A stretch of 64,000 nt of DNA, taken from positions 62,001 to 126,000 of the IMG/VR virus record IMGVR_UViG_3300042905_003904; one strand, given 5' to 3'. Under the pieces are notes generated by a model that had not been told where the DNA came from, searched no databases, and saw only the letters and a program-made list of their open reading frames with translations. The DNA comes from a virus. Shown here in pieces: positions 41,987 through 50,474 of the stretch. Position 1 is the stretch's first letter. The number at the start of each line of letters is the position of its first letter. Made by a program: the position numbers and the translations under genes.

Positions 41987-42080
41987 TGGCGACCAGCTAA
42001 GGTGTCGATCCCTAACCCAAGTCTTAGTTGGGTCCACCTCGCTTCAAACGAGAGGTCATCGCCGGATGACTTAACTGGCC
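41987..42080 (-). tRNA. tRNA-Ser (UGA)
   Basis: A 94-nt class II tRNA. Acceptor GGCCAGT/GCTGGTC with G73 and encoded CCA. D-loop TCCGGCGA keeps GG. Anticodon loop TTTGAAG. Long variable arm with CCCAAGTCTTAGTTGG on the plus strand. T-loop ATCGACA keeps T55-C56. One of four near-normal elbows. Its 5' end overlaps the stop codon of the gene at 42071. Confidence 0.85.
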
Positions 42081-42391
42081 TTTAAAAGTTCTGGATTTTC
42101 GTTAATGTTGCCAATTATATCCATAGGACGAATAAACCCGCAATGATCTGTTAGTAAAATTCGAGCACGATGGTTAATGCCGAAGCTACCTTGCATGTAG
42201 ACCACTAACCCCACAACATCAAATCCTATATCTTTAGTAGCTACAATATCACCTTCGAATATTTCATTTTTGGTTAAATCAAAAATTGCAGTGCCTTCCT
42301 CGAACACCAAAGTAGGATCCTCAAAAGAATATATTCCTTTCAATGGAATATACTTCTTTAAAATTTTGTCATAGACTCGAATATTTCTCAT
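42071..42391 (-). CDS. YopX-family protein, shortened
   Basis: A 106-aa protein starting MRNIRVYDKIL after TAATATG. It has the YopX end (FEGDIVATKDIG, IIGNINENPELLK) but a reduced first half. Its stop overlaps the first bases of tRNA-Ser(UGA). Third YopX copy in the window. Confidence 0.7.
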   Translation of the reverse strand: MRNIRVYDKILKKYIPLKGIYSFEDPTLVFEEGTAIFDLTKNEIFEGDIVATKDIGFDVVGLVVYMQGSFGINHRARILLTDHCGFIRPMDIIGNINENPELLKAS

Positions 42392-42392
42392 A

Positions 42393-42587
42393 TTACCACC
42401 CAATAGATTTACTGGCACTGACCCATGCAGCAGAATCAGCATCTCGTTTAGCATACATTACTTTGGCATAATAGTCACCCACCTCTCCTTGAAACATTTC
42501 ATCCCCAACTACAGCATGTCTCCATTTGGAAAGCAGTTCATATAGGCTCATATTATCAATGATTGGTTTCGCGGTTTCTAATGTCAT
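42393..42587 (-). CDS. hypothetical protein
   Basis: A 64-aa helical protein (YELLSKWRHAVVGDEMF). The C-terminal AAWVSASKSIGW is slightly hydrophobic. It is coupled to the YopX gene by TAATATG. Confidence 0.6.
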   Translation of the reverse strand: MTLETAKPIIDNMSLYELLSKWRHAVVGDEMFQGEVGDYYAKVMYAKRDADSAAWVSASKSIGW

Positions 42588-42611
42588 AAAAGAAGTTTCC
42601 TGTATTTTATG

Positions 42612-42665
42612 AGGAAAAACAAGTCCGGATTACTGATGCTCCAAATGGTAGGATCAGTAATCCGG
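42612..42665 (-). terminator. rho-independent terminator
   Basis: A 13-bp perfect stem (CCGGATTACTGAT with its complement) with a 15-nt loop. On the minus strand it is followed by TTGTTTTT. It ends transcripts of the metallopeptidase-like gene. Confidence 0.8.
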
Positions 42666-42670
42666 TTGTG

Positions 42671-42731
42671 GTAAGGCTTGACCCTTCCCAGAGTTCTCGA
42701 GCTGATGGGGTCTTTTAACGAGAATCCTTAC
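42671..42731 (-). ncRNA. possible pseudoknotted RNA
   Basis: An outer stem GTAAGG/CCTTAC encloses two interleaved helices, TTCTCG/CGAGAA and GACCC/GGGTC, which would form an H-type pseudoknot of about 60 nt. It starts at the stop codon of the gene upstream and precedes the terminator. Confidence 0.4.
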
Positions 42732-43441
42732 GACAAATTACTTAGTTCGCTCCAGACCTGAAAGAGCCGACTTTTTAAAAGTTTTAGGTGCTTCGGCGAT
42801 TCTAAACAAGCCACCAAGAAATTTTTATCATCTATAATCCATTTTGGCAAAGATTTGATGGTTCTCTTTAAAGGGGTTCGAATGAACTGTTCCAAGTCCT
42901 TTAGAAACAGTGTTTTTTGCTTGGACCATTGCGCGTCCGAGCGTTGAACCTCTAAAGTGGACGTTCTGACGCGTTTAAGATGGTTAATAAGATGGAAACG
43001 AAGAGTTCCTAAATGAGCCTCAAACTCTGCTGGTTCTAAGAAGTAATCTTTACGATAGGCTAAACCCCCAGCCTTAATAGTGGTAATTGCATCATCATAA
43101 GTTGCTGAGGTGTCCTTATAATGCTGAACTCCATGCCAAACTTCATGCACTAGAAACTTTTCTAGATTAGCCGCATTTAAATTTTGAATCCCTTTCCAGT
43201 AAAGGACAATTTGTTTTCCGGTCCATTCCCCAACAGCCGAAATGTCTTCAGGACTAAGAACTAGGGGGATATTTTTAACTCGGTTGGTTTCCCTATTAAC
43301 CACTGAAATAGAACCCAAAGAAGTTTTCTTGGTGGGTGGTTCTTGAATTTGAGACAGCTTACGACTAAACTGATGAATTTGAGAAAGAGTCTCTTCTGGA
43401 AGATCCTTGAAGGATTCTGAGAAGAAGGTTTGAAAATTCAT
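42728..43441 (-). CDS. zinc metallopeptidase-like protein
   Basis: A 237-aa protein with the zincin motif FLVHEVWHGVQHY (HExxH, about residues 97-101). Downstream acidic residues (EPAEFEAHLG, about residue 140) could supply the third zinc ligand. The N- and C-terminal parts are helical and basic. TATAAATA lies 9 nt before the ATG, so it is late-expressed. It might be a virion-associated or host-directed protease; this is inferred. Confidence 0.65.
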   Translation of the reverse strand: MNFQTFFSESFKDLPEETLSQIHQFSRKLSQIQEPPTKKTSLGSISVVNRETNRVKNIPLVLSPEDISAVGEWTGKQIVLYWKGIQNLNAANLEKFLVHEVWHGVQHYKDTSATYDDAITTIKAGGLAYRKDYFLEPAEFEAHLGTLRFHLINHLKRVRTSTLEVQRSDAQWSKQKTLFLKDLEQFIRTPLKRTIKSLPKWIIDDKNFLVACLESPKHLKLLKSRLFQVWSELSNLS

Positions 43442-43450
43442 ATGATGTAG

Positions 43451-43458
43451 TATTTATA
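43451..43458 (-). promoter_or_regulatory. late promoter
   Basis: TATAAATA on the minus strand, 9 nt before the start of the metallopeptidase-like gene. Confidence 0.7.
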
Positions 43459-43465
43459 GAGAAAA

Positions 43466-43540
43466 TGGTAACCCTACCCAAAATTGCATTGGGACTTAAT
43501 CCTTAGGAGGGAATCGTGATGTCTATTTCACTATAGGGTT
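43466..43540 (-). tRNA. tRNA-Arg (CCU)
   Basis: 75 nt. Acceptor AACCCTA/TAGGGTT, all 7 pairs, A73, encoded CCA. D-arm GTGA/TCAC with loop AATAGACA, no GG. Anticodon loop CTCCTAA. T-stem CCCAA/TTGGG, T-loop TGCAATT (T55 replaced by G). Confidence 0.85.
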
Positions 43541-43549
43541 ATTAAAGAG

Positions 43550-43621
43550 TGTTCCATCCAGGAATTGCACCTGGAATAAGATTTCCGCAAAATCTCGTGA
43601 TGTCTATTTCACTAATGGAAC
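43550..43621 (-). tRNA. tRNA-Arg (GCG)
   Basis: 72 nt. Acceptor GTTCCAT/ATGGAAC perfect, A73, no encoded CCA. D-arm identical to the neighbouring tRNA-Arg(CCU), loop AATAGACA. Anticodon stem AGATT/AATCT, loop TTGCGGA. T-stem CCAGG/CCTGG, loop TGCAATT. Confidence 0.85.
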
Positions 43622-43626
43622 TAAAA

Positions 43627-43707
43627 TGGTATTCGCGATAGGGGTCGAACCTATATATTATCCAGTTAACCTTTTTACTCGTTAGAAGCGAGAGGGTATA
43701 CGCGAAC
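43627..43707 (-). tRNA. tRNA-Arg (UCU), D-arm apparently missing
   Basis: 81 nt. Acceptor GTTCGCG/CGCGAAT, A73, CCA. Anticodon arm CTCG/CGAG with loop CTTCTAA. Only seven bases separate acceptor and anticodon arm, too few for a D-arm. A 22-nt variable region follows. T-arm ATAGG/CCTAT with the normal loop TTCGACC. Confidence 0.65.
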
Positions 43708-43713
43708 ATTAAA

Positions 43714-43789
43714 TGGAAATCCGGGTGATATTTGCAATCACTATTAGCTATTTTGCAGATAGCCACCGATCTACTTTGGCTTCCGGATT
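43714..43789 (-). tRNA. tRNA-Cys (GCA)
   Basis: 76 nt. Acceptor AATCCGG/CCGGATT, U73 (a Cys identity base), CCA. D-loop AAAGTAGATC-like, no GG. Anticodon stem GCTAT/ATAGC, loop CTGCAAA. T-stem GTGAT/ATCAC, loop TGCAAAT. Confidence 0.88.
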
Positions 43790-43794
43790 ATAAA

Positions 43795-43890
43795 TGGCAG
43801 TGAGCAGAGTATTTGCAACCCAACCCAAGTCTTAGTTGGATCCACATACTTTCCAGGTATGGCCGATATCGCTGGTTCGGTTTACTCACT
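43795..43890 (-). tRNA. tRNA-Ser (GGA)
   Basis: 96 nt, class II. Acceptor AGTGAGT/GCTCACT, G73, CCA. Anticodon stem CATAC/GTATG, loop CTGGAAA. The variable arm shares CCAACTAAGACTTGGG with two other Ser tRNAs. T-loop TGCAAAT. Confidence 0.87.
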
Positions 43891-43897
43891 ATTAAAT

Positions 43898-43972
43898 TGG
43901 TCCCAATATCCGGACATGCACCGGCTTCACAGACTTATGAAATCTGGGTTTTACTATATAAACTATACTGGG
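43898..43972 (-). tRNA. tRNA-Met (CAU), elongator type
   Basis: 75 nt. Acceptor CCCAGTA/TATTGGG with a paired C1-G72, A73, CCA. D-arm GTTT/AAAC, loop ATATAGTA. Anticodon stem CAGAT/GTCTG, loop TTCATAA. T-loop TGCATGT. It could instead be tRNA-Ile if C34 is lysidylated. Confidence 0.82.
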
Positions 43973-43983
43973 TCTTAAAATTG

Positions 43984-44451
43984 TCAATCTTGATATTCAA
44001 TGATATAAGTGGAATTTCGGGTGTGAATTAAGGTTTTTTCTTCGTTCGTGCTCATAATACTAGAAGAACAGAAGTGACCGTGATCTAATACGATAGCGCC
44101 ACCAACTTTTAGTGGGGAGGTTAATTTGCCTTTGTGTATACTTTTTACACCCAATTTAATTACTCGAACTCTTTTATCCCAAACTTCTCCCTTCAGATTC
44201 AAAGTGGTAACCATACCACCCATGGAGATATTCCTGCCGTGATAATATTCAATTTCCTCCGGATTCAAATCTCGAGTGGTTGCTTTGGGAAAACGAACAT
44301 CTATAAACCCTATCCCATAAACCCAGGCACCATAAAAGTTTTCTTCGTCCTCTTTATAGACACTGCAAATATCTGGAGTGTCATTACTAATGTCACCAAG
44401 ACCATGAAACGCTTTGGTGGCGAGTTTGTAAATGGATTTGAATTCTTTCAT
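43984..44451 (-). CDS. hypothetical protein
   Basis: A 155-aa protein within the tRNA array. It has a strand-rich centre (VDKRVRVIKLGVKSI-like block 'VWDKRVRVIKLGVKS') and IVLDHGHFCSSS. No family recognised. Short spacers separate it from tRNAs on both sides, so it is probably on the same transcript. Confidence 0.65.
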   Translation of the reverse strand: MKEFKSIYKLATKAFHGLGDISNDTPDICSVYKEDEENFYGAWVYGIGFIDVRFPKATTRDLNPEEIEYYHGRNISMGGMVTTLNLKGEVWDKRVRVIKLGVKSIHKGKLTSPLKVGGAIVLDHGHFCSSSIMSTNEEKTLIHTRNSTYIIEYQD

Positions 44452-44499
44452 GTTTCTATATTAGAATGGATTTGAAGGAAAGACCAGAAAAAGAAAGAG

Positions 44500-44590
44500 A
44501 GGTTCGCTAAGCTGCCGCCGCTTAACCCAAGTCTTAGTTGGATCCAGGAATTTAGCAAATTCCGTTCATCACTGGATGAATTAACGAACC
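44500..44590 (-). tRNA. tRNA-Ser (GCU)
   Basis: 91 nt, class II. Acceptor GGTTCGT/GCGAACC, no encoded CCA; the base at 73 is T, unusual for Ser. D-arm TTCA/TGAA, loop TCCAGTGA. Anticodon stem GGAAT/ATTCC, loop TTGCTAA. The variable arm is shared with Ser(GGA). T-stem TAAGC/GCTTA, loop GGCGGCA. Confidence 0.83.
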
Positions 44591-44597
44591 ATGAAAG

Positions 44598-44671
44598 TGG
44601 GGCCGAGAACCAAAATTGCATTGGTATCATCTATATTACGAGTATAGGGTTTTGCATTAAACTATCTCGGC
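44598..44671 (-). tRNA. tRNA-Thr (CGU)
   Basis: 74 nt. Acceptor GCCGAGA/TCTCGGC, CCA, base 73 is C. D-arm GTTT/AAAC with 6-nt loop AATGCA. Anticodon stem CTATA/TATAG, loop CTCGTAA. T-stem ACCAA/TTGGT, loop TGCAATT. Confidence 0.85.
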
Positions 44672-44675
44672 ATGG

Positions 44676-44780
44676 GAATACTGAATTGTGCGAAGCAGCG
44701 GGACTGCTCTGGGCGTTTATGACTAGTCGTCCAGTCACCGCTATTCACGCGACCGAATTTCTTCGCACAATTCAATACTC
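44676..44780 (-). ncRNA. structured RNA with 20-bp closing helix
   Basis: 105 nt. The ends form a 20-bp helix with two G.U pairs. Inside are AGCGG/CCGCT enclosing TGACT/AGTCA with loop GGACGACT. No tRNA fold or protein frame explains it. It lies between tRNA-Thr(CGU) and tRNA-Ser(CGA). Confidence 0.6.
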
Positions 44781-44830
44781 ATTGTTTAAATATTATCTGT
44801 TAGTTTTAGGGAATTGCAACTAATTTAAAA

Positions 44831-44925
44831 TGGCGGCTAACGGAGTGGATGCTACCCAACCTAGTAGTGAACTAGATCCAACTATTTTCGAAATAGTGTC
44901 AGCTCGCTTGTCTGATTCATTAGCC
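44831..44925 (-). tRNA. tRNA-Ser (CGA)
   Basis: 95 nt, class II. Acceptor GGCTAAT/GTTAGCC, G73, CCA. Anticodon stem ACTAT/ATAGT, loop TTCGAAA. Long variable arm. T-loop AGCATCC. Confidence 0.82.
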
Positions 44926-44931
44926 ATTAAA

Positions 44932-45006
44932 TGGTAGTCGGGGAGAATTTCGCAATCTCAATCTTGGCATTCAGAGTGCCCTGCGTTACTTTTACGCCAC
45001 CCGACA
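44932..45006 (-). tRNA. tRNA-Gln (CUG)
   Basis: 75 nt. Acceptor TGTCGGG/CCCGACT with an open T1-T72, A73, CCA; a weak first pair is typical of Gln. D-arm GCG/CGC, loop TAAAAGTAA. Anticodon stem GGCA/TGCC, loop CTCTGAA. T-loop TGCGAAA. Confidence 0.8.
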
Positions 45007-45013
45007 ATTAAAA

Positions 45014-45099
45014 TGGAGCCTGATGAGGGACTTGCACCCCCGGTGAGATTTCTCTACATGATTACAAATCACGTCCTATCGCTACTAAGGGAATCAGGC
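45014..45099 (-). tRNA. tRNA-Thr (UGU)
   Basis: 86 nt. Acceptor GCCTGAT/ATCAGGC, U73, CCA. D-stem CCT/AGG, loop TAGTAGCGAT. Anticodon stem CGTGA/TCATG, loop TTTGTAA. A short extra hairpin in the variable region (GAGA/TCTC), unusual for Thr. T-loop TGCAAGT. Confidence 0.8.
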
Positions 45100-45119
45100 A
45101 TTTTGAAATTTATTTGAAA

Positions 45120-45197
45120 TGGCATCGTCTGAGGCTCTTGCGGCCTCTAGGTCTACTTTGAGGGAGTAGTTACTCGAGCTACTTTGTATTAGACGAC
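45120..45197 (-). tRNA. tRNA-Glu (CUC), C33
   Basis: 78 nt. Acceptor GTCGTCT/AGACGAT (G1.U72), G73, CCA. Anticodon stem CTACT/AGTAG, loop CCCTCAA with C at 33 instead of U. T-stem GAGGC/GCCTC, loop CGCAAGA. Its 5' end overlaps the end of the gene at 45189. Confidence 0.75.
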
Positions 45198-45383
45198 ATT
45201 GTATTGTGCAGTTACATTCTCGGCAATAATCTTGGCTGCCTTGAGGTGAAGATCTAGGGGAATCAAATTCTTTAAATCCGCAAATAACATTTCTGCTAGA
45301 CCACAAAAATCGTGGTAGTTGGCTCCTTCTGCTTCTTCGGAGGCTTTACGTAAAATTTCATCGATCTTGTTTTGAAGTTTCAT
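45189..45383 (-). CDS. hypothetical protein
   Basis: A 64-aa helical protein (KIDEILRKASEEAEGANY, LHLKAAKIIAENV). Its last 9 nt overlap tRNA-Glu(CUC). No family recognised. Confidence 0.6.
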   Translation of the reverse strand: MKLQNKIDEILRKASEEAEGANYHDFCGLAEMLFADLKNLIPLDLHLKAAKIIAENVTAQYNVV

Positions 45384-45392
45384 GAGATGATT

Positions 45393-45653
45393 TTAACTAC
45401 GAGTTTTCTGGAATTCTCTTAGTTTTTCTAAATCATCCCCTTCATAAAAATCTGGAATACCGCTTGCTGGATATCCGCCGCATCTACCACAAGATAAACA
45501 AGTTCCGGCTCCTCTAATGGTTCCTACTTCACCATTATGATTGATTACTAAATTAGAACGTTCTCCATCACAGTTATCACAAGAGAACATGCTTCTTTCA
45601 GTGATAATAGAAACATAGGCTTCGGAAAGTAGTTGGGTATCTTTGTCGTTCAT
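45393..45653 (-). CDS. zinc-ribbon protein
   Basis: An 86-aa protein starting MNDKDTQLL, chosen because CTAAATA lies 5 nt upstream. CDNC (about residue 24) and CLSCGRCGG (about residue 52) form a probable zinc site. Function unknown. Confidence 0.65.
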   Translation of the reverse strand: MNDKDTQLLSEAYVSIITERSMFSCDNCDGERSNLVINHNGEVGTIRGAGTCLSCGRCGGYPASGIPDFYEGDDLEKLREFQKTRS

Positions 45654-45658
45654 ACGAG

Positions 45659-45665
45659 TATTTAG
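45659..45665 (-). promoter_or_regulatory. late promoter
   Basis: CTAAATA on the minus strand, 5 nt before the ATG at 45653. Confidence 0.55.
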
Positions 45666-45756
45666 GTTAAAGTGGCTGGGAATCCGGCGTTTGCATCCGG
45701 TTTTAAAGTTTTTCAAACTTTCACACTACGTCATGTGTTAATTCCCAATTAAAAAG

Positions 45757-45830
45757 TGCTAGAGGGGTGTGCTGCCCACTCCTTCCTTCGACTTATCAAG
45801 TCGGTGCATATGCTGTTTTGCTTCTCTAGC
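45757..45830 (-). tRNA. tRNA-Ile (GAU)
   Basis: 74 nt. Acceptor GCTAGAG/CTCTAGC perfect, A73, no CCA. D-arm GCA/TGC, loop AAACAGCATA. Anticodon stem CGAC/GTCG, loop TTGATAA. T-loop GGCAGCA. Confidence 0.82.
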
Positions 45831-45841
45831 GTTTGAAAATA

Positions 45842-45913
45842 TTCGCCATGTTCGTGCTGCCCGAACTACTCCCAGTATGTCGAACTAGGTTTCTGCTGTT
45901 GAATTAATGGCGA
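45842..45913 (-). tRNA. tRNA-Val (GAC), C33
   Basis: 72 nt. Acceptor TCGCCAT/ATGGCGA perfect, A73, no CCA. D-arm TTC/GAA, loop AACAGCA. Anticodon stem CTAGT/ACTGG, loop TCGACAT with C33. T-stem GTTCG/CGAAC, loop GGCAGCA. Confidence 0.75.
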
Positions 45914-45983
45914 GTGAAATTGGCCTGCGAATTTTAACACCCCTTGCAGGTCGGGCTACGTGCTGAACGTGTTCTTAAGAAAG

Positions 45984-46057
45984 TGGAGCCCAATCCCGGT
46001 AACTCTCCGGATTTTCACCATTACCAATGGCGTGTATTAATTTTATACGAATCGGGC
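45984..46057 (-). tRNA. tRNA-Thr (GGU)
   Basis: 74 nt. Acceptor GCCCGAT/ATTGGGC, U73 as in Thr(UGU), CCA. D-arm GTAT/ATAC, loop AAAATTA. Anticodon stem CGCCA/TGGTG, loop TTGGTAA. T-stem TCCGG/CCGGG, loop AGAGTTA. Confidence 0.85.
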
Positions 46058-46066
46058 TTTAAAACG

Positions 46067-46138
46067 TAGTCCCGGAAAATTTTGCAATTTCAACCTTCTC
46101 TGTGTAAAAGAGTTGCTCCACTTTTGAGCTACGGGACC
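46067..46138 (-). tRNA. tRNA-Val (UAC)
   Basis: 72 nt. Acceptor GGTCCCG/CGGGACT, A73, no CCA. T8-A9 and D-arm GCTC/GAGC, loop AAAAGTG. Anticodon loop TTTACAC. T-stem GAAA/TTTC, loop TGCAAAA. Confidence 0.8.
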
Positions 46139-46150
46139 ATTAAATTAAAG

Positions 46151-46226
46151 CGCTGCTGGAAAGAATTGCACTCTCATAAATCCTACTTCGAAGGTAGGTG
46201 CCTGGGTCTGTTCGAGCCACAGCAGC
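46151..46226 (-). tRNA. tRNA-Arg (UCG)
   Basis: 76 nt. Acceptor GCTGCTG/CAGCAGC perfect, G73, no CCA. Anticodon stem CCTAC/GTAGG, loop CTTCGAA. T-stem GAGAG/CTTTC, loop TGCAATT. Confidence 0.82.
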
Positions 46227-46241
46227 ATTATTAAAAATTAA

Positions 46242-46348
46242 TTCCACTTTATGAAGCCAGTCTCCCTCGCAGGATAAGCACTCTTCATAAACAAACACCA
46301 AACGTAAACGATTTATAGGGTTTTGACACCAGTGCAAGTGTAGTGGAA
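46242..46348 (-). ncRNA. structured RNA, three-way junction
   Basis: 107 nt. Outer helix TTCCACT/AGTGGAA, an 8-bp arm TTATGAAG/CTTCATAA and a small arm ACAC/GTGT. Lies between tRNA-Arg(UCG) and tRNA-Gly(GCC). It is too long for a tRNA and contains no anticodon arm. Confidence 0.55.
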
Positions 46349-46351
46349 ATA

Positions 46352-46426
46352 TGGAAGGCGTTATCGGTATTGCGCCGATTTATCTAACTTGGCAAGCTAG
46401 TGCATCACTTTTTATGCTTAACACCC
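46352..46426 (-). tRNA. tRNA-Gly (GCC)
   Basis: 75 nt. Acceptor GGGTGTT/AACGCCT, U73 (Gly identity), CCA. D-arm GCAT/ATGC, loop AAAAAGTG. Anticodon stem CTAGC/GTTAG, loop TTGCCAA. T-stem ATCGG/CCGAT, loop CGCAATA. Confidence 0.86.
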
Positions 46427-46435
46427 ATTAAAAAT

Positions 46436-46942
46436 TTATCCCATAGTAGCAAATATATCATTTTGGATACCCTGAAGGTTTACTGCTATGTGCGGATATA
46501 AAGAAATTTCATTTGTTTTAATGTCCTTCAAATAAATATTGGATTTTAAACAATTAGCAGGATCCTGAAACATATTTGTTGTATTTTTTAATGTTAACGG
46601 TTTATCTTTACAAAGCGTCCAGTCATGTTTATAAAAACAATCATGAGTCGGGGCTGGAATCCTAATACTACCACAACTGTTAAAGGTTACTACGGTTTTC
46701 GCTATGTCATCCAATTCTAGGAATTTAACAAAGAACAATTTTCTTGGTAAATTTTGCACATGAATAATATGCCAATCAGAATTGAATTCGGTCTGATAAT
46801 CTTTCAATGTGTCTTTATCCATAGGAAATGTATGGAAACATTCATAATCAAACCGAACGACAGTATCCGTTGATTTACCTTTAATCTTCCACAGATAATC
46901 TTGGCGATTATATATGGTTTCCAATGAATGAATAATTCTCAT
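46436..46942 (-). CDS. hypothetical protein
   Basis: A 168-aa protein encoded inside the tRNA array. Aromatic- and Cys-containing (FDYECFHTFPMD, HDCFYKHDWTLC), strand-rich (KTVVTFNSCGSIRIP). No family recognised. Confidence 0.65.
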   Translation of the reverse strand: MRIIHSLETIYNRQDYLWKIKGKSTDTVVRFDYECFHTFPMDKDTLKDYQTEFNSDWHIIHVQNLPRKLFFVKFLELDDIAKTVVTFNSCGSIRIPAPTHDCFYKHDWTLCKDKPLTLKNTTNMFQDPANCLKSNIYLKDIKTNEISLYPHIAVNLQGIQNDIFATMG

Positions 46943-47237
46943 AAATTGATGTTACTATTATTTGTTCGGAATAGCACTCTCAACTTTAGAAAAACACCTC
47001 CACAAATTAGGCTTAGTAAAAGAGGCCTGCATGGTCTGGCGAAAATATAAGCTCCCATGATTTACAACCTTTGGGTATTAGTATCTGGAACGGTTATGCA
47101 GATCTGCTTAAAGGGTATCATCCTTGGGATTTTTACCCAACCACCATAAGATATCATTAGGTGTTTCTAGCACACATTCCAGGCTCATCTAGACTCATAG
47201 GATTGGATAAGATTTCGGGCTGATGTTATTTTGAAAA
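46943..47237 (-). other. about 295 nt without gene
   Basis: No tRNA or protein gene seen. Minus-strand hairpins include TTGGG/CCCAA with a 7-nt loop (about 47,129-47,145) and the palindrome GCAGATCTGC (about 47,098-47,107). It is either leader of the gene at 46436 or another structured RNA of the array. Confidence 0.35.
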
Positions 47238-47312
47238 TGGCTCCCACCCAACGATTCGAACGTTGCTCACACGAGTTAACAGCTCGGCCGCACACCTAGT
47301 GCGTTGACGGGA
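47238..47312 (-). tRNA. tRNA-Asn (GUU), canonical elbow
   Basis: 75 nt. Acceptor TCCCGTC/GGTGGGA, G73 (Asn identity), CCA. D-arm CGCA/TGCG, loop CTAGGTG keeps GG. Anticodon stem CGAG/CTCG, loop CTGTTAA. T-stem CAACG/CGTTG, loop TTCGAAT, fully canonical. Confidence 0.93.
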
Positions 47313-47320
47313 TTTGAAAT

Positions 47321-47394
47321 TGGCACCCCATTCGGAGCTCTCATCCGATATTCTTGCGTGACAAGCAAGTATGATAATCATTCATCAATGGGGT
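47321..47394 (-). tRNA. tRNA-Asp (GUC)
   Basis: 74 nt. Acceptor ACCCCAT/ATGGGGT perfect, G73 (Asp identity), CCA. D-arm ATGA/TCAT, loop ATGATTA. Anticodon stem CTTGC/GCAAG, loop TTGTCAC. T-stem TCGGA/TCCGA, loop TGAGAGC. Confidence 0.88.
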
Positions 47395-47401
47395 ATTAAA
47401 T

Positions 47402-47478
47402 TGGTCCGAAAGGTAGGCGCTTCCCCTACATATATCCGCACATCAAGCGGGTCCTTTATATTTCTCAGGCACTCTCGG
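47402..47478 (-). tRNA. tRNA, GAU anticodon (Ile?)
   Basis: 77 nt. Acceptor CCGAGAG/CTTTCGG, A73, CCA. D-stem CCT/AGG. Anticodon stem CCGC/GCGG, loop TTGATGT. T-stem GTAGG/CCTAC, loop GGAAGCG. A second GAU tRNA, so the assignment rests on the loop alone. Confidence 0.72.
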
Positions 47479-47487
47479 TTTGTAAAT

Positions 47488-47579
47488 TGGTAGAAGGTGT
47501 CGGTAACGCTCCGACTCGAGGCCCACATCTAGGGCGAAACGGGGTATAAAACCGTCTTGGCTACTTAGCACAACCTTCC
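47488..47579 (-). tRNA. class II-like tRNA, UAU anticodon in best fold
   Basis: 92 nt. Acceptor GGAAGGT/ACCTTCT, A73, CCA. Anticodon stem ACGG/CCGT; a 7-nt loop reads TTTATAC. Extra arm GCCC/GGGC. T-stem GTCGG/CCGAC, loop AGCGTTA. A long variable arm is unexpected for Ile, so identity is uncertain. Confidence 0.65.
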
Positions 47580-47588
47580 ATTGAAATA

Positions 47589-47666
47589 TGGGGTAAACGA
47601 CCGCATCTGCCGCGGCTATAACTCCGGTTCACAGCCGGATCCCTATCTACTTTGGGTTCGTCTACC
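47589..47666 (-). tRNA. tRNA-His (GUG)
   Basis: 78 nt. It encodes the extra G-1 paired with C73, the defining His feature. Acceptor GTAGACG/CGTTTAC, CCA. D-arm CCC/GGG, loop AAAGTAGATA. Anticodon stem CCGG/CCGG, loop CTGTGAA. T-stem GCCGC/GCGGT, loop GGCAGAT. Confidence 0.88.
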
Positions 47667-47675
47667 ATTTGAAAT

Positions 47676-47749
47676 TGGCCGTTTGTGGACTTCAACCACT
47701 TCCCGGATAACGGTTTTAATCCGGTTTCAGTTCTCATAGGTTTGCGGCC
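47676..47749 (-). tRNA. tRNA-like element, identity uncertain
   Basis: 74 nt. Acceptor only 5 bp (GGCCG/CGGCC), no clear D-stem. The best anticodon loop is ATTAAAA (UAA) on a 4-bp stem. T-stem GTGG/CCAC, loop TTGAAGT. It could be a degenerate or divergent tRNA. Confidence 0.4.
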
Positions 47750-47884
47750 CGAAGCTGCCTGAAATTTAAGCCAGTTACTCGAGCTCCCTATTTGCGGCAC
47801 TTAACCGTCAAGTTTAGTGGACTCCGCCATTTGGGGACCTGTTTCGCTGACACCACCAAATTGACGTTCGGTGGAAATTAATTA
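47750..47884 (-). other. unresolved array segment
   Basis: No tRNA fold found. It contains a D-arm-like hairpin ACTT/AAGT with loop GACGGTT, a TTAAG/CTTAA pair and CCACC/GGTGG. It may hold a further structured RNA or a decayed tRNA. Confidence 0.3.
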
Positions 47885-47960
47885 CCAAAGAAACCCCTCA
47901 TTCTGAACTGGAAGCTACGACATCTTCAAGAGACGTTTCCAGTGACACGGGGTTCTTTGG
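47885..47960 (-). ncRNA. long bipartite hairpin RNA
   Basis: 76 nt. Closing helix of 12 bp with one bulge (CCAAAGAA-CCCC), then ACTGGAA/TTCCAGT and ACGTCT/AGATGT stacked inside. One long rod rather than a cloverleaf. Confidence 0.5.
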
Positions 47961-47987
47961 CTTCTATCTATGGATGTCAAATTATAT

Positions 47988-48062
47988 CCGTTTGTGCTTC
48001 CTCTTACACTAAGTCTCCTGATTGATTTCAGAAGCGCCGGTCCTTGAACCCGAACTAAACGG
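47988..48062 (-). ncRNA. tRNA-sized multi-hairpin RNA
   Basis: 75 nt. Ends CCGTTT/AAACGG. Inside TCGG/CCGG with loop GTTCAAGGA, CTTCTGA/TCAGGAG with a 6-nt loop, and CTTA/TAAG. It has the size of a tRNA, but the arms do not match one. Confidence 0.4.
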
Positions 48063-48066
48063 AAAT

Positions 48067-48141
48067 TGGCACGCGCTGATCTGCTTGCAAGATCCCACGA
48101 CCTTTTGGAGAGGTTGTCGCCACTATGGAACATGAGCGCGT
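48067..48141 (-). tRNA. tRNA-Trp (CCA)
   Basis: 75 nt. Acceptor ACGCGCT/AGCGCGT perfect, G73 (Trp identity), CCA. D-arm TGTT/GACA. Anticodon stem ACCT/AGGT, loop CTCCAAA. T-stem GATCT/AGATC, loop TGCAAGC. Confidence 0.88.
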
Positions 48142-48147
48142 ATGAAA

Positions 48148-48222
48148 TGGTAGCCCCACCTGGTAACCCTCCAGGTTCTATGGTTTCAAAGACCACTGCA
48201 TTTAGTTCTATGCTATGGGGCA
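48148..48222 (-). tRNA. tRNA-Gln (UUG)
   Basis: 75 nt. Acceptor TGCCCCA/TGGGGCT with open T1-T72, as in the other Gln tRNA. A73, CCA. D-arm GCAT/ATGC, loop AGAACTAA. Anticodon stem GTGGT/ACCAT, loop CTTTGAA. T-stem CCTGG/CCAGG, loop AGGGTTA. Confidence 0.87.
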
Positions 48223-48231
48223 ATTATAAAA

Positions 48232-48308
48232 TGGTGAGCTCCCAGGGTATCGCGCCCTGCATCTCCAATTTAAAAGATTGGTGCATACTCTATGGCAGCT
48301 TGGAGCCC
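48232..48308 (-). tRNA. tRNA-Lys (UUU)
   Basis: 77 nt. Acceptor GGGCTCC/GGAGCTC, A73, CCA. Anticodon stem CCAAT/ATTGG, loop CTTTTAA. T-stem CAGGG/CCCTG, loop CGCGATA. Confidence 0.88.
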
Positions 48309-48315
48309 ATAAAAT

Positions 48316-48389
48316 TGGTGAGTCGTCCTGGTAATTCTCCAGGTTCTTCTGTTTAAGAGACAGGGGCCTTAATTTTAGGCGAACAACCC
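48316..48389 (-). tRNA. tRNA-Lys (CUU)
   Basis: 74 nt. Acceptor GGGTTGT/ACGACTC, A73, CCA. D-arm GCCT/AGGC, loop AAAATTA. Anticodon stem CTGT/ACAG, loop CTCTTAA. T-stem CCTGG/CCAGG, loop AGAATTA. Confidence 0.88.
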
Positions 48390-48402
48390 ATATTGAAATT
48401 AA

Positions 48403-48486
48403 TCGTATACTCCGGTGTTGCTCCGAGCGTAATCTTTCGATATCTAGATCCCAAATCTAGCGGGGTCTCTGGCTCCCTCGTATACG
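48403..48486 (-). tRNA. tRNA-Pro (UGG)
   Basis: 84 nt. Acceptor CGTATAC/GTATACG perfect, A73, no CCA. D-arm GGG/CCC. Anticodon stem CTAGA/TCTAG, loop TTTGGGA. A short extra hairpin in the variable region (ATC-GAAA-GAT). T-loop AGCAACA. Confidence 0.8.
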
Positions 48487-48496
48487 TTTTATAAAT

Positions 48497-48581
48497 TGGT
48501 AGTCCCGACAGGCATCGAACCTGCAAGCATTTCTGCGTAAGTTTCTAAAACTTATATGTTTGCCAATTTCATCACAGGACC
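48497..48581 (-). tRNA. tRNA-Leu (UAG), canonical elbow
   Basis: 85 nt, class II. Acceptor GGTCCTG/CGGGACT, A73, CCA. D-arm ATG/CAT, loop AAATTGGCAAA keeps GG. Anticodon stem TAAGT/ACTTA, loop TTTAGAA. T-stem GCAGG/CCTGT, loop TTCGATG. Confidence 0.9.
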
Positions 48582-48590
48582 ATTAAATAG

Positions 48591-48673
48591 TGTCGATAGT
48601 TGGAGTTGCACCAACACGCCCTTTCGGACAAAAGTTTTTAAGACTTTCATGGCTTCTGTTACATCATACCGAC
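48591..48673 (-). tRNA. tRNA-Leu (UAA)
   Basis: 83 nt, class II. Acceptor GTCGGTA/TATCGAC, A73, no CCA. D-arm ATG/CAT, loop TAACAGAAGC. Anticodon stem AAAGT/ACTTT, loop CTTAAAA. Variable arm TCC-GAAA-GGG type. T-stem GTTGG/CCAAC, loop TGCAACT. Confidence 0.88.
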
Positions 48674-48681
48674 TTTGAAAT

Positions 48682-48765
48682 TGGTCCTCATAGTAGAAAT
48701 TGCATCTACACTCCCGAAGGAACTTGTTTTTGAGACAAGCGCGGCTGCTGTTACGCCATATGAGG
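48682..48765 (-). tRNA. tRNA-Leu (CAA)
   Basis: 84 nt, class II. Acceptor CCTCATA/TATGAGG perfect, A73, CCA. D-arm GCG/CGC, loop TAACAGCAGC. Anticodon stem CTTGT/ACAAG, loop CTCAAAA. T-stem GTAGA/TCTAC, loop TGCAATT. Confidence 0.9.
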
Positions 48766-48785
48766 TTTATTGAAATTTCTCAAAT

Positions 48786-48938
48786 ACCACCTCATCCGTT
48801 TGCGATCGGATACTACACACTAAACCAGCCCGGTTCGTGCTTCGGCAGTTTTCCCTATTTGGGCTCCTACTAACCCCGGCAGGTAATTAGTAGATCTTTG
48901 AGGTAGACCCCCGCGTCTGTTATTGCGCCAGCAGATGG
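48786..48938 (-). ncRNA. multi-helix RNA or tRNA with very large variable region
   Basis: About 150 nt. A Leu-type D-arm (GCG/CGC) and an arm GGTCT/AGATC with loop ACCTCAA occur near the 5' end. Near the 3' end ATCCG/CGGAT forms a T-arm-like hairpin, and GAGGTGG can pair with CCATCTG or CTACCTC. Between them lie CTACTAA/TTAGTAG, AGCCC/GGGCT and TGC-CGAA-GCA. Confidence 0.4.
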
Positions 48939-48951
48939 CATTTGAAATTAA

Positions 48952-49022
48952 TTCAGTGGTTCGATGCTGCAGGAGTGCCTGGGCTGAATCGATTGACTTC
49001 TAGTTCCTGGCGAAACACTGAA
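48952..49022 (-). ncRNA. tRNA-sized RNA with perfect closing stem
   Basis: 71 nt closed by TTCAGTG/CACTGAA, 7 perfect pairs. No normal anticodon or T-arm found on either strand, so it is not called a tRNA. Strand follows the neighbours. Confidence 0.35.
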
Positions 49023-49024
49023 AT

Positions 49025-49102
49025 TGGTAGCGTATACCGGTGCTGCCCCGGTTCTAAGTTCTCCTTGAAAGGGAGGGAAGCATGCTGTTGCTCATATACG
49101 CC
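49025..49102 (-). tRNA. tRNA-Glu (UUC)
   Basis: 78 nt. Acceptor GGCGTAT/ATACGCT, A73, CCA. D-arm GAGC/GCTT, loop AACAGCAT. Anticodon stem CTCC/GGAG, loop CTTTCAA. T-stem ACCGG/CCGGT, loop GGCAGCA. Confidence 0.84.
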
Positions 49103-49111
49103 ATTTGAAAT

Positions 49112-49208
49112 TGGAGCGATTAGGGGATTTGCACCCACACCTTTAGTCTAGACGACTACTGTTCTATGAATCCCTAAAGAGGAAATTCTCTAATTAAACT
49201 ACCCTCGC
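49112..49208 (-). tRNA. class II tRNA-like element
   Basis: 97 nt. Acceptor pairs partly (GCGA/TCGC plus GGG/CCC with a bulge); CCA encoded. Variable arm TAGTC/GACTA. T-loop TGCAAAT on a short stem. The anticodon is not clear (UUU in one fold). Confidence 0.45.
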
Positions 49209-49214
49209 ATTAAA

Positions 49215-49305
49215 TGGTGGGAGCAAACTGAATCGCACAGTAAGCCTCGACTTCCAATCCTTGGTTAAGGTGCGGTTTTACAGACCGCCGATTGGGGTTA
49301 CTCCC
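49215..49305 (-). tRNA. tRNA-Tyr (GUA), reduced D-arm
   Basis: 91 nt. Acceptor GGGAGTA/TGCTCCC, A73, CCA. Anticodon stem GCGGT/ACCGC, loop CTGTAAA. Only 10 nt lie between acceptor and anticodon arm; CCAATC there can pair with GATTGG in the long variable region. T-loop TGCGATT. Confidence 0.78.
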
Positions 49306-49316
49306 ATTTGAAATTA

Positions 49317-49388
49317 TTGCAGGTATGGGAATTGCACCCATGCATAACGGCTTATGAGACCGTGGACTTACTACTTGTCGAACCCGCG
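49317..49388 (-). tRNA. initiator-like tRNA-fMet (CAU)
   Basis: 72 nt. Acceptor CGCGGGT/ACCTGCA with the open C1.A72 that marks bacterial initiators. A11-T24 in the D-stem (GAC/GTC), also an initiator mark. Anticodon stem ACGGT/GCCGT, loop CTCATAA. T-stem ATGGG/CCCAT, loop TGCAATT. A73, no CCA. Confidence 0.85.
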
Positions 49389-49456
49389 ATTTGAAATCAT
49401 ACCCAAATAGATCTCTCAAGTCTTTTTTAAGGACCATCTATCCAGGTTTTGAAAGT

Positions 49457-49539
49457 TACAGAGGCGGGTATTGATCCACTTTTGGGCATTTGCACCTTCC
49501 AGGTTATGGGCCTGGCGAAACACGTTTTCTCTACTCTGT
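49457..49539 (-). tRNA. tRNA-like, CAU anticodon (Ile2 or Met), C33
   Basis: 83 nt. Acceptor ACAGAG/CTCTGT (6 bp), no CCA. D-arm GAAA/TTTC, loop ACGTG. Anticodon stem CCAGG/CCTGG perfect, loop CCCATAA with C33. Extra arm GGT/GCC. T-arm weak (GTGG/CCGC). Confidence 0.6.
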
Positions 49540-49560
49540 TATTTAAAGACTATCAAGAAG

Positions 49561-49619
49561 GTCCGATGCTATTATCATTGCGATTTTATAGAATGGTGAT
49601 AAAGCCACCCTCATCCGAC
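49561..49619 (-). ncRNA. 59-nt hairpin RNA, possibly mini-tRNA-like
   Basis: Ends pair over 7 of 8 bases (GTCGGATG/CATCGGAC). Inside GGTG/CACC carries a 7-nt loop GCTTTAT, and a T-arm-like hairpin AAAAT/ATAAT carries CGCAATG. No D-arm. Confidence 0.35.
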
Positions 49620-49650
49620 GAAACACTTCCTGAATCTGTATAAATTGAAG

Positions 49651-49724
49651 TGGAATATCTGGGTTACGCTCCCAGTTCTGCGCATTGCAAGTGCACCGTG
49701 TTACCTATTAATCACTAATACCCC
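49651..49724 (-). tRNA. tRNA-Ala (UGC)
   Basis: 74 nt. Acceptor GGGGTAT/ATATTCC contains G3.U70, the alanine identity pair. A73, no CCA. D-arm GTG/CAC, loop ATTAATAGGTAA with GG. Anticodon stem GTGCA/TGCGC, loop CTTGCAA. T-stem CTGGG/CCCAG, loop AGCGTAA. Confidence 0.88.
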
Positions 49725-49742
49725 TTTACTCTATGAAATTTG

Positions 49743-49857
49743 TTTGGTGTGAAATTTTACCCGCGATTATTTTCCAGCTTTGCGATAACCCCTTAGATTA
49801 GACCCTCAGGGAAAGGCGGTTCCTTCAACATCGCAAAGGTCCTTTATAGGCACCAAA
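49743..49857 (-). ncRNA. structured RNA with 9-bp inner helix
   Basis: 115 nt. Outer helix TTTGGTG/CACCAAA, inner CTTTGCGAT/ATCGCAAAG perfect, with small hairpins inside (CCC-TGA-GGG). It lies between tRNA-Ala and another structured RNA. Confidence 0.55.
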
Positions 49858-49861
49858 TTAT

Positions 49862-49981
49862 TTTCCTGAAAGTGTTTGTGGACTGCGGGAAACTGCCTCC
49901 GCCCGACCTTTGATCACCCAAGTGGATGAGAAAGAAATTGCATCTTTCGACTCCCAGCCCCTTTCAGGAAATTGGGCAGGA
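49862..49981 (-). ncRNA. structured RNA with T-arm-like hairpin
   Basis: 120 nt. Outer helix TTTCCTGAAAG/CTTTCAGGAAA, 11 perfect pairs. Inside, GAAAGA/TCTTTC carries loop TGCAATT, identical to the T-loop of many tRNAs here, followed by TCATCC/GGGTGA with an ACTT loop and a GCGG/CCGC arm. Confidence 0.55.
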
Positions 49982-50294
49982 TTTGTTCCCATTACTTCCA
50001 GGGTCAGCTTTTAGCCTGCGGAGCTGTGCTTCTTTCGAAATCGTCTAATTTTAACACGCAGACTAGAAACTGCGAAGTCTTTGGGAGGCTTTCATAATCT
50101 GCCGGTTCACCATTCCGGACTGACGAATTATGTTTTGCTGATTACGCTTTGCGGGCTTCTCTCAGATACAATCTTTTGTTCTGGAGTGATTGAACTCCAG
50201 TATCTTTATGCGCTATTAGAGCACACTATCGAGGAGAGTAATACATTTATCCCCGTTTCTACATCTGCCCGTTTCACAGGCATACTAGAGAAAA
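49982..50294 (-). other. about 310 nt without tRNA; hairpins
   Basis: No protein gene seen. GCAG/CTGC and AGACT/AGTCT interleave near 50,060-50,085 (possible pseudoknot). AGATAC/GTATCT encloses CTGGAG/CTCCAG with loop TTCAATCA at 50,164-50,205. It is probably more structured array RNA. Confidence 0.35.
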
Positions 50295-50369
50295 TGGAGC
50301 GACATGTGGGTAACCCACCCACTTAAACCTGTTTGGAAAACAGGTGCATCAGTTTTCTGCCAATGTCGC
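50295..50369 (-). tRNA. tRNA-Gly (UCC)
   Basis: 75 nt. Acceptor GCGACAT/ATGTCGC perfect, U73 (Gly identity), CCA. D-arm GCA/TGC, loop GAAAACTGA. Anticodon stem CCTGT/ACAGG, loop TTTCCAA. T-stem GTGGG/CCCAC, loop TGGGTTA. Confidence 0.88.
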
Positions 50370-50379
50370 ATTTGAAATT

Positions 50380-50474
50380 TGGTGGCCGGACATGTTCGTC
50401 ATTATGAAGCTTACGGATGCCTGTGGCGGGGCTGGGTTATTCACCAACCCGAATACACTTTTCAGACGCCGACC
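50380..50474 (-). tRNA. class II tRNA-like element (UGA in best fold)
   Basis: 95 nt. Acceptor GGTCGG/CCGGCC, CCA encoded. Anticodon-like stem GGGTT/AACCC with loop GGTGAAT (G at 33). Long variable region. T-arm weak. It could be a divergent tRNA-Ser. Confidence 0.45.

Follow-up and report, generated by a model that had tools for sequence, protein, structure and literature searches.

Whether the elbow of a tRNA has been lost or replaced is the question raised by a phage tRNA array in which most D- and T-loops depart from the usual letters. In the normal elbow, G18 lies between bases 57 and 58 and contacts pseudouridine 55, and G19 pairs with C56; the 18-55/19-56 elbow and pseudouridine 55 rank among the most conserved tRNA features. 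The array lies in a stretch of 64,000 nucleotides (the window) from a 129-kb myovirus-like IMG/VR record (IMGVR_UViG_3300042905_003904). A sequence-only reading had described about 38 minus-strand tRNA folds at 41987-50474, about 34 of them lacking T55-C56 and most lacking the D-loop GG.

The window was searched with a scanner that ignores the letters of the D- and T-loops and scores only the stems, the lengths of the loops, U33, R37 and the presence of an encoded CCA. At threshold 23 it returned 32 units, every one on the minus strand at 41987-50369, and 0 units on the plus strand or in the window outside this interval; 0 units were likewise found in the loci scanned from the remainder of the 129-kb record. 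At thresholds 24-28, the real matches ran from 27 to 2, versus 0 in shuffled arrays, and a looser threshold retained 37 cloverleaf tRNAs. The expected number of folds is thereby borne out as 37 cloverleaf tRNAs plus one D-arm-less tRNA-like unit, and the span holds up to 50369, but 50370-50474 is a doubtful unit with no clear tRNA. On the same window ARAGORN reports 10 tRNAs, and 14 pass the Rfam gathering score. All 37 units have acceptor, anticodon and T stems of 7/5/5 bp and 7-base anticodon and T-loops, with T33 in 35/37, R37 in 37/37 and an encoded CCA in 27/37, and the set serves 20/20 amino acids. The features are as follows.

33139..34560 (+) phage tRNA nucleotidyltransferase (CCA-adding enzyme); fits array units without encoded CCA
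41987..42080 (-) tRNA-Ser(UGA), canonical type; T-loop ATCGACA (T55 C56), D-loop TCCGGCGA (G18 G19)
43466..43540 (-) tRNA-Arg(CCU); T-loop TGCAATT, D-loop AATAGACA
43547..43621 (-) tRNA-Arg(GCG); T-loop TGCAATT, D-loop AATAGACA; CCA not encoded
43627..43707 (-) D-arm-less tRNA-Arg(UCU)-like unit; canonical T-loop TTCGACC; core kept in other phages
43714..43789 (-) tRNA-Cys(GCA); T-loop TGCAAAT, D-loop AAAGTAGATC
43795..43890 (-) tRNA-Ser(GGA); T-loop TGCAAAT, D-loop ACCAGCGATA
43898..43972 (-) tRNA-Met(CAU); T-loop TGCATGT, D-loop ATATAGTA
44497..44590 (-) tRNA-Ser(GCU); T-loop GGCGGCA (54-58 G-G), D-loop TCCAGTGA
44598..44671 (-) tRNA-Thr(CGU); T-loop TGCAATT, D-loop AATGCA; exception, without the A18-G19 dinucleotide
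44831..44925 (-) tRNA-Ser(CGA); T-loop AGCATCC, D-loop ACAAGCGAG
44932..45006 (-) tRNA-Gln(CUG); T-loop TGCGAAA, D-loop AAAAGTA
45014..45099 (-) tRNA-Thr(UGU), long variable arm; T-loop TGCAAGT, D-loop TAGTAGCGAT
45120..45197 (-) tRNA-Glu(CUC); T-loop CGCAAGA (54-58 C-A), D-loop AAAGTAGCTCGA
45673..45747 (-) tRNA-Phe(GAA); T-loop TGCAAAC, D-loop ATGACGTA (possibly C18-G55)
45754..45830 (-) tRNA-Ile(GAU); T-loop GGCAGCA, D region AAACAGCATA; CCA not encoded
45839..45913 (-) tRNA-Val(GAC); T-loop GGCAGCA, D-loop AACAGCA; C33; CCA not encoded
45984..46057 (-) tRNA-Thr(GGU); T-loop AGAGTTA, D-loop AAAATTA: U19-A56
46064..46138 (-) tRNA-Val(UAC); T-loop TGCAAAA, D-loop AAAAGTG; CCA not encoded
46148..46226 (-) tRNA-Arg(UCG); T-loop TGCAATT, D-loop CGAACAGACCCA; CCA not encoded
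46352..46426 (-) tRNA-Gly(GCC); T-loop CGCAATA, D-loop AAAAAGTG
47238..47312 (-) tRNA-Asn(GUU), canonical type; T-loop TTCGAAT, D-loop CTAGGTG (G18 G19)
47321..47394 (-) tRNA-Asp(GUC); T-loop TGAGAGC, D-loop ATGATTA: U19-A56
47402..47478 (-) tRNA-Ile(GAU); T-loop GGAAGCG, D-loop GAGAAATATAA: U19-A56
47488..47579 (-) tRNA-Ile(UAU), long variable region; T-loop AGCGTTA, D region TAAGTAGC
47589..47665 (-) tRNA-His(GUG); T-loop GGCAGAT, D-loop AAAGTAGATA; G-1 and C73
48067..48141 (-) tRNA-Trp(CCA); T-loop TGCAAGC, D-loop CCATAGT
48148..48222 (-) tRNA-Gln(UUG); T-loop AGGGTTA, D-loop AGAACTAA: C19-G56
48232..48308 (-) tRNA-Lys(UUU); T-loop CGCGATA, D region GCCATAGAGTA
48316..48389 (-) tRNA-Lys(CUU); T-loop AGAATTA, D-loop AAAATTA: U19-A56
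48400..48486 (-) tRNA-Pro(UGG); T-loop AGCAACA, D region AGCCAGAGAC; CCA not encoded
48497..48581 (-) tRNA-Leu(UAG), canonical type; T-loop TTCGATG, D-loop AAATTGGCAAA
48588..48673 (-) tRNA-Leu(UAA); T-loop TGCAACT, D-loop TAACAGAAGC
48682..48765 (-) tRNA-Leu(CAA); T-loop TGCAATT, D-loop TAACAGCAGC
49025..49102 (-) tRNA-Glu(UUC); T-loop GGCAGCA (54-58 G-G), D-loop AACAGCAT
49215..49305 (-) tRNA-Tyr(GUA); T-loop TGCGATT; D-arm not resolved
49314..49388 (-) tRNA-Met(CAU), C1-A72 mismatch (initiator-like); T-loop TGCAATT, D-loop AAGTAGTAA; CCA not encoded
49648..49724 (-) tRNA-Ala(UGC); T-loop AGCGTAA (A54, T58), D-loop ATTAATAGGTAA; G3-U70
50295..50369 (-) tRNA-Gly(UCC); T-loop TGGGTTA, D-loop GAAAACTGA: C19-G56

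Position 55 is G in 34/37 window tRNAs and T in 3/37 (Asn, Leu-UAG and Ser-UGA); with its covarying A18/N19, the set departs from the universal combination of G18 G19 and T54-pseudouridine 55-C56. The described loss of T55-C56 stands for T55, but C56 is present in 31/37, the usual loss being U55 alone. Similarly, the D-loop GG is gone, but the partner is exchanged rather than lost: A18 replaces G18, and base 19 is the Watson-Crick complement of base 56 (G19-C56, C19-G56 or U19-A56). The three U55 tRNAs all retain G18G19, as the sequence-only reading had noted.

Joint change of the two loops is supported by a set of 72 tRNAs, comprising the 37 of the window and 35 of a related phage, in which G55 occurs in 68/72 and R57 in 72/72. 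A single D-/T-loop pairing rule is obeyed by 69/72 tRNAs, the U55/G18 ones included, versus a mean of 55.3 and a maximum of 66 in 20,000 permutations (p<5e-5); among T-loops other than GC, 14/15 obey it (permuted mean 6.2). The three exceptions are the window Thr-CGU, the window Tyr and the Arg-UCG of the relative (U19-G56). The 54-58 pair also covaries (T-A 39, A-T 11, G-G 11, C-A 5, A-A 4, T-T 2). Between the two phages, elbow types are swapped with compensation in tRNAs of the same anticodon (Val-GAC, His, Thr-GGT, Asn, Gly-GCC, Ser-UGA and Leu-UAG). This covariation of both loops indicates that the elbow of the array is rewired, not lost. As A18 accompanies G55 and R57, the loop reads G55-N-R57 plus A18, the letters of a composite GNRA tetraloop as made by UGNRA T-loop motifs in other RNAs.

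The discriminator base fits the amino acid in 67/72 tRNAs (permuted mean 35.7, maximum 48), and in the same set G-1 is confined to the two His tRNAs and G3-U70 to the two Ala tRNAs. As these aminoacylation identity elements are intact, the units look like working tRNAs; together with the stems, they are the ground for classing the units as tRNAs with a variant elbow. The predicted three-dimensional fold and use in translation are very probable. RtcB is encoded in the genome of the window phage. EF-Tu and TruB of phage origin were looked for and not found in the phages searched, and host factors must therefore accept the rewired tRNAs. Going by the title of Pan et al. 2006, cited in PMC4810234, 18-55 changes reportedly slow translocation in ordinary tRNAs.

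A search of other phages, also proposed in the sequence-only reading, found the same loops throughout the related phage and singly elsewhere. The CCA-adding enzyme of this relative is about 53% identical to that of the window phage, and 34/35 of its tRNAs have an altered elbow that covaries in the same way, in sequences that have diverged strongly; when tRNAs with the same anticodon are compared between the two phages, identity is mostly about 45-60%, suggesting that the array evolves very fast. A whole array of this kind is thus no longer unique, although other tRNA-rich phages carry the elbow only as single tRNAs (about 5%), and U55-C56 occurs in 225/253 tRNAs of other phages. Relatives with canonical loops, named in the sequence-only reading as a possible sign of error, are represented only by a more distant phage; the nearest array-bearing relative is altered alike, excluding sequencing error. 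Among RNR relatives, a broad sample of large phages, the Rfam tRNA count was at least that of our model in 43, and the model exceeded Rfam in just two phages, that of the window (26 vs 11) and the related one (23 vs 14). Terminase and sheath searches gave few relatives; G005, a relative by its terminase, showed no array. In IMG/VR, a probe for the Thr D-arm matched the record of the related phage, and the other matched stretches carried no scanner tRNAs; a Gly-UCC probe search gave no match. Megablast with the array against GenBank phages also gave no match, and a distant sequence search returned mostly single ordinary tRNAs. A literature search covering few subscription journals and preprints returned no paper on phage elbows of this kind.

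The related phage encodes tmRNA and ThrRS, and is the only one among the phages searched with synthetase family PF00587. Its ThrRS is 74% identical to that of Chthoniobacterales (Verrucomicrobiota), and its best 80 matches are all, judged by title, from that phylum or close to it, making Chthoniobacterales the probable host lineage. In two Chthoniobacterales genomes, 31/31 true tRNAs read have T55 C56, with high Rfam scores.

The array is probably a working, complete phage tRNA set with a rewired elbow. With A18 in place of G18 and G55 in place of pseudouridine 55, G55-N56-R57-A18 would read as a composite GNRA tetraloop, as UGNRA T-loop motifs form elsewhere, and the 19-56 pair capping the elbow would be retained with its letters free. 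TruB, and often TrmA, would be unable to modify these tRNAs because U55, and often U54 too, is gone, and host proteins reading G18/G19/pseudouridine 55/C56 should fail to recognize them. Phage translation could then continue when host tRNAs are attacked or host modification is limiting. Escape from tRNA-cleaving defences or elbow-binding factors, as the sequence-only reading proposed, is plausible; evasion of tRNA-targeting defence may be the benefit, at somewhat less than even chance, and freedom from elbow modification is a weaker candidate, and the two can act together. T54 is kept in 41/72 tRNAs, which means that avoiding TrmA is not the only driver. We know of no elbow-specific host nuclease, and none was found.

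Rewiring might, with no role in defence, simply permit modification-independent folding: a GNRA-type elbow stable without pseudouridine 55/T54 would let fast, late-made tRNAs fold without TruB/TrmA. G55 cannot be pseudouridylated, a TruB homologue is absent from the phages searched, and the same letters are used in riboswitch and RNase P T-loops, for which we know of no pseudouridine 55. However, T54-G55-C56-R57-A58 alone would suffice for this, leaving the diversification of 19-56 and 54-58 unexplained, and other phages mostly retain U55-C56; this explanation is doubtful, though the strongest of the rivals. Neutral drift of a fast-evolving array into an alternative stable elbow, followed by compensation without benefit, is less likely still. 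The low identity of same-anticodon tRNAs and the sporadic altered tRNAs elsewhere suit drift, whereas conversion of nearly all members (34/37 and 34/35 in strongly diverged phages), with a canonical distant relative and host lineage, is not expected from it.

Decoys or non-translational tRNAs, that is, poor EF-Tu substrates soaking up nucleases or donating amino acids, have a precedent for 18-19 changes in staphylococcal non-translational tRNA-Gly (PMC4052509). The set, however, covers 20 amino acids, its anticodon loops are good, its identity elements are correct and a CCA-adding enzyme is encoded, all of which points to decoding. A decoy would gain nothing from having the right G-1/C73 (His) or G3-U70 (Ala), and this reading is quite improbable. 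It is hardly credible that the phage copies elbows of its host: no supporting evidence was found, and in the two genomes read from the Chthoniobacterales lineage indicated by the ThrRS all 31 true tRNAs are canonical at 55-56. Degenerate pseudogenes or an assembly artefact would fit the failure of standard tools to detect most units, yet the stems are intact, the loops covary, the identity elements are in place and a second phage, assembled independently, follows the same rule, which makes this the least likely explanation of all.

If the units are the rewired, working set favoured here, they show that a near-invariant part of the translation system can apparently be rebuilt, and suggest how a virus might conceal its tRNAs from its host. 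Such a natural, apparently complete compensated set would make the universality of the elbow directly testable, and escape through the elbow, if it occurs, would be a new site of phage-host conflict over tRNA. As standard finders miss most members, viral tRNAs of this type are probably undercounted. Tentatively, almost all tRNAs of this phage lineage may have been switched to an orthogonal composite-GNRA elbow, unreadable by host elbow enzymes and defences yet accepted by ribosomes and synthetases, and single copies in many phages, often missed by annotation tools, may reflect a general counter-defence.

The window tRNAs share with the canonical elbow (G18-pseudouridine 55, G19-C56, T54-A58) the cloverleaf, the stems of the L-shape, R57, a Watson-Crick 19-56 pair and, by prediction, an intercalating base 18. 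They differ in A18/G55 for G18/pseudouridine 55, in 19-56 pairs that are also C-G or U-A and in 54-58 pairs that are also A-U, G-G and C-A. In staphylococcal cell-wall tRNA-Gly, the T-loop is altered too. There, GG at 18-19 is likewise replaced, but by UU or CU, in glycine tRNAs diverted from translation (PMC4052509), so this precedent, offered in the sequence-only reading, is only partial. The window set covers 20 amino acids with compensated pairs and A18 with N19, which rules out membership of that type. Mitochondrial type II tRNAs and tRNA-Pyl also lack G18G19/TpsiC, with the D-T contact lost or rearranged (PMC7609411), whereas the window tRNAs keep this contact by covariation of 18-19 with 55-56, ruling out the mitochondrial type. 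Phage tRNA arrays described by van den Berg 2023 (PMC10264068) similarly form a set possibly resisting host tRNA damage with repair genes alongside, but escape tRNA-targeting defences through anticodon-loop changes; T-loop, D-loop and elbow are nowhere mentioned in that text, and it is in the elbow that the window changes sit.

In the UGNRA lonepair triloop or interdigitated T-loop of the TPP riboswitch, T-box, RNase P and 23S rRNA, the triloop G and an outside A complete a composite GNRA tetraloop (PMC2258182), and T-loops of the UGxRA and AGAGA types interdigitate (PMC7583486; PMC4810234). Common to these and the window tRNAs are G at loop position 2, a purine at position 4 and an outside A expected to pair with the loop G. 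The letters N-G-N-R-N plus an outside A are found in the tRNA set (G55 68/72, R57 72/72, rule 69/72), and where the motif has a closing U-A pair of trans Watson-Crick/Hoogsteen geometry, the set has the letters T54-A58 in 39/72, the other combinations covarying. The window version differs in its predicted place: it would form the elbow of tRNAs that take part in decoding, and its outside A is supplied by the D-loop.

Position 55 of the T-loop is G in 34 of the 37 cloverleaf tRNAs that lie, together with one D-arm-less unit, on the minus strand at window 41987-50369. The sequence-only reading had T55-C56 missing in about 34; the replacement of U55 stands, and C56 is in fact retained in 31 of 37. 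The loss of the D-loop GG that it described for most units holds, with the amendment that in G55 tRNAs GG is replaced by A18 and a base 19 complementary to base 56. This is mostly G19 with C56, with C19-G56 in Gly-UCC and Gln-UUG, and U19-A56 in Lys-CUU, Thr-GGU, Ile-GAU (47402) and Asp. As had been noticed, G18 G19 is retained in those three tRNAs that have U55 (Asn, Leu-UAG and Ser-UGA).

That the two loops change together, also proposed from the sequence, is borne out by 72 tRNAs pooled from the window phage and the related phage G001. The required dinucleotide, searched anywhere in the central D region and with "A18" and "N19" assigned by motif rather than by structure, is present in 69/72, against a mean of 55.3 and a maximum of 66 in 20,000 shuffles of T-loops among these tRNAs (p<5e-5). 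T-loops other than GC fit this rule in 14 of 15 cases (shuffled mean, 6.2). Covariation is seen between positions 54 and 58, in the combinations T-A, A-T, G-G and C-A (mutual information 0.92 versus 0.07), and all 72 have a purine at position 57.

The tRNAs were found with a home-made scanner that scores stems, loop lengths, U33, R37 and encoded CCA and disregards D- and T-loop letters. At threshold 23 it gives 32 matches in the array region and none in the rest of the window, other scanned stretches of the record or shuffled sequences; a looser run yields the 37. On the same array ARAGORN reports 10 tRNAs and Rfam 14 passing matches. Among 45 large phage records, matches to a home-made tRNA model outnumber Rfam matches only in the window phage and G001.

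The discriminator base suits the amino acid in 67 of the 72 tRNAs (permuted mean 35.7, maximum 48), G-1 is confined to the two His tRNAs, both with C73, and G3-U70 to the two Ala tRNAs. One tRNA-Met has an initiator-type C1-A72 mismatch, and tRNAs for all 20 amino acids are present. In pseudogenes or decoys, identity elements of this kind are not expected to persist.

The CCA-adding enzyme of G001 is about 53% identical to that of the window phage, and its array has at least 35 tRNAs, 34 with G55. Same-anticodon tRNAs of the two phages are mostly about 45-60% identical, and in several pairs the elbow class is swapped with compensation. When relatives were checked for canonical loops, the more distant phage G041 (CCA enzyme, 41%) had canonical-type ones in 13/13 tRNAs (12 TTC, one TCC). 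Because this distant phage is canonical and the nearer G001 altered, the altered state is probably derived within this phage lineage.

In other phages altered loops occur singly: G55-C56 is found in 14 of 253 tRNAs from 26 tRNA-rich viral contigs located with an unrelated probe, nearly all with A18-G19-type D-loops, and in 20 of 177 from a second sample itself chosen by the model. Ochrobactrum phage OC has an annotated Ala tRNA of this type, and Streptomyces phage Persimmon a probable, unannotated His tRNA (T-loop GGCGGTA, L080:1185-1258). A probable Phe tRNA with loop GTCAGAA in phage OC (L081:7481-7556) is absent from its GenBank annotation.

The array also holds the following unit:

window 43627-43707, minus strand: D-arm-less tRNA-Arg-like unit, nearly invariant core GTATACCCTCTGGCTACGAACCAGTTGAAAGGTTAA...

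Its acceptor and T stems vary around this core, and it recurs in 26 IMG/VR contigs as well as in phages of Streptomyces and Microbacterium (L080:3012; L082:2001; L083-L108), where it is unannotated and has no Rfam match. It looks like a conserved phage RNA not yet described. Within the array, a 570-base stretch without clear tRNAs (window 49725-50294, minus strand) folds better than 100/100 shuffles (z -2.45) and has no Rfam match, and could represent a large structured RNA. G001, too, has a gap, of about 690 bases (L069 13275-13968). Several odd units without a clear cloverleaf share a GTTTCGYCRG-like box (window ~47050, 48990, 49515 and 49610, minus strand), and a 13-bp hairpin, GAATTGTGCGAAG/CTTCGCACAATTC, surrounds a tRNA-like core (window 44682-44770 and flanks, minus strand). 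tRNA-Thr(UGU) (window 45014-45099; L069:14457-14544) has a long, class II-like variable arm and is the second most conserved tRNA between the two phages (77% identity). Three Ser tRNAs (window 41987-42080, 43795-43890 and 44497-44590) have a nearly identical variable arm, GGAYCCAACTAAGACTTGGGT.

The window phage (record length, 129,222 bases, of which the window covers 62001-126000) is myovirus-like, encoding large terminase, tail sheath, RNR, CCA-adding enzyme, and gp32-like and PhoH proteins. The threonyl-tRNA synthetase of G001 (L079:1171-2412) is 74% identical to Spartobacteria/Chthoniobacter enzymes, and its best 80 matches carry titles that place them in Verrucomicrobiota, with a few listed under related names; we infer that the window phage has the same host lineage. 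Of the tRNAs read from two genomes of this lineage, 31/31 true ones are TTC-type with GG; the scanner gave one further match, a weak one with GT. G001 also carries a tmRNA with tag ADNTELALAA (L069:6455-6806).

Phage tRNAs help to evade tRNA-targeting defences (PMC10264068, PMC11555353). An RtcB-type RNA ligase in the window phage's own genome (L016:8642-9859) is a possible tRNA repair enzyme and, with the CCA-adding enzyme, would fit a host that damages tRNA. Proteins that read G18, G19, psi55 or C56 should fail on the altered tRNAs, and the altered elbows may serve escape from such a defence; alternatively, they may free the tRNAs from TruB/TrmA. We know of no nuclease that reads the tRNA elbow. 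The ribosome, RNase P and T-boxes contact the elbow mainly by stacking on the 19-56 pair, for which any Watson-Crick pair can serve.

The elbow of an ordinary tRNA is capped by G19-C56, and its G18 inserts between bases 57 and 58 and touches psi55 (PMC4810234). T-box loops are UGxRA and AGAGA (PMC7583486). In UGNRA T-loop motifs elsewhere, G pairs with an outside A to form a composite GNRA tetraloop (PMC2258182); G55-N56-R57 plus A18 of the array present the same pattern.
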